Of a DNA stretch of 64,000 nt, positions 39,336-40,643 are shown piece by piece; the stretch's first letter is position 1, and every line of letters begins with the position of its first letter. Below the pieces are notes generated by a model. That model searched no databases. It saw only the letters and a program-made list of their open reading frames with translations, and was not told where the DNA came from. The DNA lies in assembly GCA_000993615.1 (NCBI GenBank), contig LBWM01000010.1:1-64000 (forward strand). Direction: 5' to 3'. The stretch is from Candidatus Peregrinibacteria bacterium GW2011_GWF2_39_17. GTDB lineage: Bacteria; Patescibacteriota; Gracilibacteria; UBA1369; UBA12473. The translations under genes were made by a program, and so were the position numbers.

Positions 39336-39376
39336 GCCGGGGTAGTCCGCCACGGCGGACACATGACTGAAAATCA
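39336..39376 (+). repeat. partial tRNA-Phe-like copy (5' part) with substituted D-arm
   Basis: Matches the intact tRNA-Phe that begins 46 bases later over the acceptor strand GCCGGGGTA and the anticodon region ACATGACTGAAAATCA. The D-arm (GCTC...GAGC) is replaced by GTCCGCCACGGCGGAC. It ends in the anticodon arm, so it cannot be a functional tRNA. Confidence 0.75.
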
Positions 39377-39381
39377 AGTTT

Positions 39382-39456
39382 GCCGGGGTAGCTCAGTGGT
39401 AGAGCACATGACTGAAAATCATGGTGTCGGCAGTTCAATCCTGCCCCCCGGCACCA
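39382..39456 (+). tRNA. tRNA-Phe (anticodon GAA)
   Basis: A complete cloverleaf can be drawn. Acceptor GCCGGGG/CCCCGGC plus A and encoded CCA, D-stem GCTC/GAGC, anticodon stem CATGA/TCATG with loop CTGAAAA (anticodon GAA), T-arm GGCAG TTCAATC CTGCC. Flanked by two partial copies of itself. Confidence 0.95.
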
Positions 39457-39463
39457 CCCTCCT

Positions 39464-39708
39464 ATGTTCACAGTCTATATTCTCATTAATAATCGAAAAC
39501 AAAAGGCAATTTCGAGCTTCGGTTAATTGAACACAATAACCCTTTAGGTAAAAAACGTGGATGGACTAGATTAAAAGGCCCGTGGAAATTACTCCATAAA
39601 GAACATTTCTGCTCTAAAAAGTTGGCACTTAAAAGAGAACACCAACTTAAATCAGGAATAGGTAGAGATTTTATAAAATCCCTTATACCTACATCCCCGC
39701 CGGGGTAG
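39464..39708 (+). pseudogene. broken GIY-YIG endonuclease gene
   Basis: Starting 7 bases after tRNA-Phe, ATG at 39464 opens MFTVYILINNRKQK, the first strand (VYIL) of a GIY-YIG nuclease, and stops at 39524-39526. A second frame (39493-39708) continues with FELRLIEHNNPLGKKRGWT, then PWKLLHKEHF, LALKREHQLKSG and GRDFIKSL, the standard remainder of the small COG2827/UvrC-like GIY-YIG family. The segment that should hold the YIG/YVG strand is missing, so a small deletion plus frame change has destroyed the gene. The second frame terminates at a TAG inside the downstream tRNA-Phe-like copy. It has no start of its own and is not expected to make an active nuclease. Confidence 0.7.
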
Positions 39709-39760
39709 TCCGCCGCGGCGGACACATGACTGAAAATCATGGTGTCGGCAGTTCAATCCT
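39699..39760 (+). repeat. partial tRNA-Phe-like copy (3' truncated) with substituted D-arm
   Basis: Matches tRNA-Phe from GCCGGGGTA through the anticodon arm, variable loop and most of the T-arm (GTGTCGGCAGTTCAATCCT), then diverges, losing the 3' acceptor strand. The D-arm is replaced by the perfect 16-bp palindrome GTCCGCCGCGGCGGAC, nearly the same insert as in the first partial copy. It overlaps the end of the GIY-YIG relic. Confidence 0.75.
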
Positions 39761-39890: not shown

Positions 39891-40643
39891 ATGTCTCTTA
39901 CACATAATACTGATCGAATTCCTGAATTAGTGGCTACTGAGCTTGACTCGCCGCCTCAAACACCTATAGCGTATTGTGAGGTAATAGCCATGCTTTCTAG
40001 ATTAGAAGGAGTTCCTCTACGAAGAAAGGATTTGCTAGCAGCAGCAATAATAGGTGGCGTCATCCGAAGAGTTGATGACACGTTTGATCGTGGGCCTATT
40101 GATACTGCTCACCAACAAGGCTGTGCGGTAACGGACGCAGTGCTCCATCCAGGCGAAGCAACGCTTCAACATGTTACCGATCCACGCATTACAAAAGCTA
40201 TTAGTATGGCGCATGACACATTTACGCCAGAGGCTCTTGATGCTCTTAAAAACTTAATGCGAGCCCAGCTTGATTCTGTCCAACAACGACTACCTGCTAC
40301 TCCTAGCTCTGTTATTGAAGACATTACCAGGCGTAAAGCCACATTCTTTCTGTTCGCAGTACAGGTCAATTGTTCTATGGGTCCCGAACGAGCCAACTGC
40401 TATAGAGAGCTTGCCTATCTTCTTCAACTAATCGATGACTACGCAGACTACGATGAAGATCGTTTTGCAGGGATTCATACGCCTGTGACGCGTTCTGCTT
40501 CGGATACTGATGCTGTGCGTCTTATTCTTACTCAATATAGGAAAGTGAAAAATCTATTCCTTAAAGAGTATAAACCACCTCAATTGATCGAACCTTTTTC
40601 ATATATTGATCAATTATTAAAAACGGTTGGCATAGTTTTTTAG
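39891..40643 (+). CDS. putative class I isoprenoid/terpene synthase-fold protein (orphan)
   Basis: 250 residues, mostly helical. Two Asp-rich motifs are spaced as in class I (all-alpha) isoprenoid synthases: RRVDDTFDR (D62, D63, D66) and LIDDYADYDEDR (D182, D183, D186, D190). Between them, RRKATFF (K149) lies 33 residues before the second motif, like the Lys-Thr helix of prenyl synthases. The layout also recalls the YtpB/DUF2600 and squalene-synthase-like groups, so prenyl elongation, cyclisation or a non-enzymatic role are all possible. The gene is visibly richer in G+C than its neighbours, lies next to the tRNA-Phe/GIY-YIG remnants, has its own promoter and no pathway partners. I infer horizontal acquisition. 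No Shine-Dalgarno is visible. Confidence 0.6.
   Translation: MSLTHNTDRIPELVATELDSPPQTPIAYCEVIAMLSRLEGVPLRRKDLLAAAIIGGVIRRVDDTFDRGPIDTAHQQGCAVTDAVLHPGEATLQHVTDPRITKAISMAHDTFTPEALDALKNLMRAQLDSVQQRLPATPSSVIEDITRRKATFFLFAVQVNCSMGPERANCYRELAYLLQLIDDYADYDEDRFAGIHTPVTRSASDTDAVRLILTQYRKVKNLFLKEYKPPQLIEPFSYIDQLLKTVGIVF

Follow-up and report, generated by a model that had tools for sequence, protein, structure and literature searches.

A decayed GIY-YIG nuclease gene between hairpin-bearing copies of a tRNA-Phe gene: the probable footprint of a tiny homing-type element in Patescibacteria

How does the only transfer RNA (tRNA) gene for phenylalanine that was found in a bacterial genome come to lie between two damaged copies of itself, with the remains of a nuclease gene beside it? 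The question is raised by positions 39336-39760 of a 64,000-nucleotide stretch of DNA, referred to here as the window, which is contig C10 of the genome (1.31 Mb in 15 contigs, 98% complete) of a Patescibacteria member, Candidatus Peregrinibacteria bacterium GW2011_GWF2_39_17. The locus is probably what remains, in decayed form, of a homing-type mobile element that uses a tRNA gene as both its site and its cargo. Such an element would be about 300-400 bp long, and its sole gene is predicted to encode a GIY-YIG nuclease of one domain (~80 amino acids). The layout of the locus recurs in other genomes with the nuclease gene and the tRNA on the same strand, one tRNA site exists in both empty and occupied alleles, and in the window the nuclease has decayed while the tRNA is intact.

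The preliminary description of this stretch recognized a partial tRNA copy, an intact tRNA-Phe, a GIY-YIG relic, and a second partial copy, in that order, and all four are present (Table 1). It also had the relic begin 7 bases past the CCA of the tRNA and run into the second copy. Both details are borne out, since the tRNA ends at 39456, an ATG stands at 39464, and the stop codon, TAG at 39706-39708, lies inside the copy at 39699-39760. The readable part of the relic (39499-39708) matches the Pfam GIY-YIG family with 26.6 bits against a gathering cut-off of 22.6 (E 7.5e-6). Its N-terminal frame is broken, with MFTVYILINNRKQKAISSFG and the stop after it read in a different frame. Also gone is the middle of the catalytic core, including the second motif and the catalytic Arg, and the gene is therefore dead. 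The intact tRNA-Phe is single-copy in a genome where 45 distinct tRNA sequences were found, and is thus presumably essential.

What the preliminary description overlooked is that the D-arm (tRNA positions 11-23) of both extra copies is replaced by a 14-base palindrome, TCCGCC[A/G]CGGCGGA. The upstream copy reads GCCGGGGTAG, then TCCGCCACGGCGGA, then CACATGACTGAAAATCA, and if the G and C that flank TCCGCCACGGCGGA are included the repeat becomes GTCCGCC..GGCGGAC (39345-39360). The second copy reads GCCGGGGTAG, then TCCGCCGCGGCGGA, then 38 nucleotides (nt) identical to the tRNA. Because the longest exact match to tRNA-Phe elsewhere in the window is only 11 nt, a chance origin of the two copies is excluded. 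No intron was found in the window at the gathering threshold, and the open reading frame (ORF) of the relic does not lie inside a self-splicing intron.

Table 1. Parts of the tRNA-Phe locus, in positions of the window
Feature	Position	Strand	Remark
Degenerate 5' copy of tRNA-Phe (tRNA positions 1-10, palindrome, 24-40)	39336..39376	+	
Palindrome TCCGCCACGGCGGA replacing the D-arm of the upstream copy	39346..39359	.	
Intact tRNA-Phe(GAA)	39382..39456	+	Only tRNA-Phe found in the genome
Decayed GIY-YIG nuclease gene	39464..39708	+	Start fragment 39464-39526; readable C-terminal part 39499-39708, in a different frame
Second degenerate copy of tRNA-Phe (tRNA positions 1-10, palindrome, 24-61)	39699..39760	+	
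Palindrome TCCGCCGCGGCGGA replacing the D-arm of the second copy	39709..39722	.	

The same arrangement occurs a second time in this genome. The pattern GTCCGCCNCGGCGGAC is present four times, always within tRNA copies, with two occurrences at the tRNA-Phe locus and two around a tRNA-Met gene on contig C8 (G000:C8:8480-8837; L034, L072). There, a 5' copy with the palindrome is followed by the intact tRNA-Met, a run of N, and a palindrome-bearing copy that is complete to the CCA. The two loci share their layout, the position of the palindrome within the tRNA, and the A/G difference, and the stretch of the tRNA-Met locus in which a nuclease gene would be expected is hidden by the run of about 104 N.

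To move beyond one genome, we used the relic protein as a query against 380 genomes of the phylum and examined the 29 best relatives, picked by protein similarity alone. The preliminary description would have been refuted by the lack of any association between GIY-YIG genes and tRNAs in related genomes, but the association is there: an intact tRNA lies within 200 bp in 26 of the 29, although only about 2% of genes would be expected to have one so close (assuming ~45 tRNAs per 1.1 Mb). All neighbouring tRNAs (33/33) are on the strand of the GIY-YIG gene, and a degenerate copy of the neighbouring tRNA, usually interrupted by a hairpin, is found at 22 of the 29 loci. Intact relatives of the relic have invariant Y5, Y16, G18, R26, H30, and E62, which places them in the GIY-YIG superfamily. 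A second set was gathered by searching the order and the phylum with Pfam; of its 174 small GIY-YIG loci, 52 have a tRNA within 200 bp. In this set, tRNA density drops steadily from 1.19 per kb at 0-100 bp to 0.015 per kb at 1000-1400 bp, and 71 tRNAs share the strand of the gene while 7 are opposite. A third set came from scanning genomes of bacteria and archaea. Of its 80 named loci, 32 have a tRNA within 400 bp, again on the same strand in every case (44/44), with loci from Bacteroidota, Ignavibacteria, Planctomycetota, and Omnitrophota among them. The sets overlap slightly (for example, L195 is L370, and L121 is L246), and in the second a few loci are repeated or are near-copies from a single genome. 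As controls, small ParE toxin genes were near a tRNA in 0 of 18 cases and DsbA genes in 4 of 19, so single genes can come to adjoin tRNAs through synteny. On a tree of 169 of the nuclease proteins, the tRNA-linked ones are clustered, needing 27 changes compared with 46 when shuffled. A narrow profile, A2, found no member in a scan of viral contigs, and a search of phages and plasmids returned distant YazA-like genes only. An assembly artefact is ruled out in general, as the pattern is found in dozens of genomes, including the single-contig genomes G146 and G249. A GIY-YIG gene of the same kind was also seen directly upstream of a transfer-messenger RNA (tmRNA) gene (L263:1501-2127).

Across these genomes many tRNA isotypes are used, and the elements take two layouts, both read in the direction of the tRNA. 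In layout A, a degenerate 5' copy (from tRNA position 1 to 22-68) is followed within a few nt by the ATG of the GIY-YIG gene and then by the intact tRNA; the ORF ends right before or within that tRNA, and in the second set 14 stop codons lie inside tRNA genes. In layout B, the intact tRNA comes first and the GIY-YIG gene after it, and degenerate copies often flank the pair at either end. Besides the window, layout B is represented by L361, from another family of Patescibacteria (tRNA-Lys, 10 nt from CCA to ATG), and by L245, on a Bacteroidetes contig (tRNA-Cys). The proposal of a single-gene nuclease element that is tied to tRNA genes and carries tRNA-derived sequence is supported, but insertion at the tRNA 3' end does not hold as a general rule; layout A is the commoner of the two, and it is mostly the 5' part of the tRNA that is duplicated. 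Elements of different families align over ~340-390 bp, from the degenerate copy to the intact tRNA, with the flanks mostly excluded. L277 and L286 share a 365-bp block with a degenerate tRNA-Ser and a GIY-YIG gene that is 96% identical, while their surroundings are rearranged. At type-B loci such as L138, L145, L198, and L215, a hairpin-rich leader of 100-150 nt separates the CCA of the tRNA from the ATG and looks alike across genomes (e.g., TTCGACAAGCTCATGG..CCCTGAGTTTATCGAA). These leaders matched no Rfam family at the gathering threshold; the search returned tRNAs only, plus one group I intron elsewhere in the batch. In some relatives the adjacent tRNA contains a group I intron, and the GIY-YIG ORF lies outside it. 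One such intron, recognised by Rfam, is in the anticodon loop of a tRNA-Asn beside a GIY-YIG element (L391:3324-3582), and a closely similar insert at the 3' end of L394 is cut off where the contig ends. Another group I intron was observed in a tRNA-Met (L016:589-829).

A free-standing homing endonuclease gene should be polymorphic in its presence, and such polymorphism is found at one tRNA-Asn site. In family f50, six genomes have the same gene upstream of tRNA-Asn. The site is empty, with a plain tRNA, in L390 and L392, and it is occupied by a degenerate copy and a GIY-YIG gene in L389, L391, and L394. L389 and L390 belong to one genus; between promoter and tRNA, L389 is longer by about 308 bp, made up of a hairpin-bearing degenerate copy and the GIY-YIG gene. 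L393 holds a relic, in which the GIY-YIG gene is truncated and a hairpin copy lies downstream. Over the 1612 bp that lead up to the tRNA, L393 and the empty L392 are 98.5% identical, but their tRNAs differ at 9 of 75 positions. From these alignments, it looks as if the resident tRNA of L393 was replaced by an element-borne one, although the assembly could be chimeric. The comparison of loci with and without the insert, which the preliminary description had proposed, thus succeeded at a tRNA-Asn site, but yielded no empty allele of the Phe site of the window.

These observations suggest the following course of events. The element would occupy a tRNA gene, with part of the old gene left over as a degenerate copy on one side or on both. 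One complete tRNA would stay functional, so that an essential single-copy gene could be invaded and the host survive. We infer that the nuclease cleaves a tRNA gene when it is uninterrupted and that the element is duplicated by recombination through the tRNA copies; the nuclease may then decay, as in the window, while selection keeps the tRNA. The hairpins would probably stop the degenerate copies from working as tRNAs or being targeted by the nuclease, a weakly supported step. More tentatively, and with rather less than even confidence, we suggest a home-and-rescue selfish system, in which a minimal nuclease destroys an essential tRNA gene on insertion and brings the only functional replacement, and the hairpins, by replacing the arm that the nuclease targets, immunise the displaced copy. 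If so, the host would depend on the tRNA of the element, and the nuclease would be free to decay later, as it has in the window.

Several findings weigh against a homing-type element. The protein is a catalytic domain alone, and its best relatives of solved structure are UPF0213 and the structure-specific nuclease SLX1, not homing enzymes with long recognition sites. One clade of small GIY-YIG genes has 97 of its 115 members away from tRNAs, and linkage is concentrated outside it (36/54 versus 18/115). The intact tRNA borne by the element should be a target of the nuclease too, yet it is spared. The L392/L393 comparison may involve a chimera, given that the tRNA is a repeat and that completeness is ~64% for both genomes, and in the cleaner pair, L389 and L390, the tRNA is identical. 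A search by DsbA synteny found no empty counterpart of the Phe site, and in the relatives seen tRNA-Phe is not beside dsbA.

Because the protein is a bare catalytic domain nearest UPF0213 and SLX1, a structure-specific nuclease that acts on hairpins is a serious rival. An SLX1-like enzyme would act on folded DNA, either the tRNA cloverleaf or a palindromic hairpin in single-stranded DNA, and the hairpin copies would be working ends of the element, akin to the hairpins of IS200/IS605-type elements, rather than scars. The single domain has no DNA-binding module, and its profile match to SLX1 (E 7e-9 to 7e-7) is better than that to I-TevI (2e-4). Of 37 inserts of 10-70 nt in degenerate copies, 36 fold better than segments drawn at random from the locus that holds them (p <= 0.05). 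Nearly all tRNA-Asn elements, across several families, keep a D-arm hairpin at the homologous position, and 2 of its 6 pairs show base changes on both sides. However, this covariation is weak, as it comes from six distinct sequences only and palindromic repeats stay symmetric anyway. The hairpins also vary in position (D arm 20, anticodon arm 7, variable or T arm 10), and the sequence of the palindrome differs among genomes. On balance we regard this alternative as unlikely, though it has to be taken seriously.

Less probable still is that a tRNA was duplicated in the ordinary way and its redundant copy took in dispersed palindromic repeats, with GIY-YIG genes gathering near tRNAs, as safe, transcribed sites, without homing. 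Palindromes of this kind do occur outside tRNA copies (CCGCC-GGCGG sites number 27 in G155 and 29 in G048), and two lie within the group I intron of L391/L358. Furthermore, hairpin-bearing degenerate copies stand near tRNA-Ala and tRNA-Gly in G330 (L323, L324), where no GIY-YIG gene was found nearby. Against this, CCTGCCTGCCGGCAGGCAGG is found a single time in each of G274 and G307, in both genomes within a degenerate tRNA-Leu adjoining a GIY-YIG gene, and of its nine occurrences in G330 at least four are within degenerate tRNA copies. The four genomic copies of the window palindrome are likewise confined to tRNA copies, and the small ParE genes lack any tRNA association. The same-strand rule, the fusion of ORF ends to tRNA starts, and the unit of 340-390 bp all demand a linked origin. 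A relic of a genomic island, integrated at the tRNA 3' end by a tyrosine integrase, is extremely improbable, and we rejected it; no integrase is seen among the ORFs here, GIY-YIG is the only gene in the insert of ~0.3 kb, it is mostly the 5' portion of the tRNA and not the 3' end that is duplicated, and the same one-gene unit is found in dozens of genomes.

For a homing-type element, the nearest documented analogue is the mobile ORFs of fungal mitochondria that carry a replacement gene end, described from atp6 of Allomyces and from atp6, atp9, cox2, and nad3 of Glomus (PMC3630166), and the present element could be regarded as their tRNA counterpart. In both, an endonuclease ORF sits in an essential gene with a duplicate of part of that gene, and the displaced resident part decays beside a functional copy; in the fungal case, divergence can be higher in the carried part than around it (PMC3630166). 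The fungal ORFs target mitochondrial protein genes and replace the 3' end (PMC3630166), whereas the present elements target bacterial chromosomal tRNA genes (once lying beside tmRNA), often duplicate the 5' end, and leave palindromic displaced copies. In phages, the free-standing GIY-YIG gene segB is statistically associated with tRNA genes of many isotypes, and SegB has been implicated in breaks within tRNA regions (PMC13096335). Unlike SegB, the present proteins are ~80 amino acids long and chromosomal, and their genes lie within 100 bp of the tRNA, on its strand, with hairpin-bearing tRNA copies. SegB is a longer protein. Within the same phylum, rRNA genes of the Candidate Phyla Radiation hold insertion sequences with small GIY-YIG genes outside recognised introns, mostly at the tops or bases of stem-loops, so that structured RNA genes are targets there as well; that study concerns rRNA only, makes no mention of tRNA, and judges its GIY-YIG genes to be outside homing (PMC11270868). 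By profile, the nearest solved folds are single-domain GIY-YIG proteins of the UPF0213/YazA type and SLX1. These are chromosomal proteins of a housekeeping type or repair nucleases, and we know of no report that links them to tRNA genes. In the open-licence literature, we found no description of bacterial tRNA-linked GIY-YIG elements with duplicated tRNA parts.

Two further duplications in the genome of the window involve tRNAs. On contig C3, a tRNA has an inverted 5' copy past its 3' end that bears the palindrome CTGTAGTTTAACTACAG (G000:C3:117580-117750; L071). On contig C15, a tRNA-Ile is followed by a tandem duplication of ~245 bp that contains tRNA positions 25-77 together with short pieces of the D-arm in inverted orientation (G000:C15:174-730; L070), and no GIY-YIG match was found there. 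Downstream of the tRNA-Phe locus, positions 39891-40643 of the window hold an ORF of 250 amino acids with no Pfam match.

tRNA genes are docking sites of large integrating elements. The elements discussed here would form a much smaller class that uses the tRNA gene as site and cargo, a class that is large, apparently undescribed, and very common in Patescibacteria and beyond. It may account for many of the small GIY-YIG ORFs fused to tRNA starts and for many of the odd tRNA fragments in these genomes. It would also offer a testable reason for the accumulation of hairpins in tRNA copies, and could be a natural analogue, likewise testable, of cleave-and-rescue gene drives.
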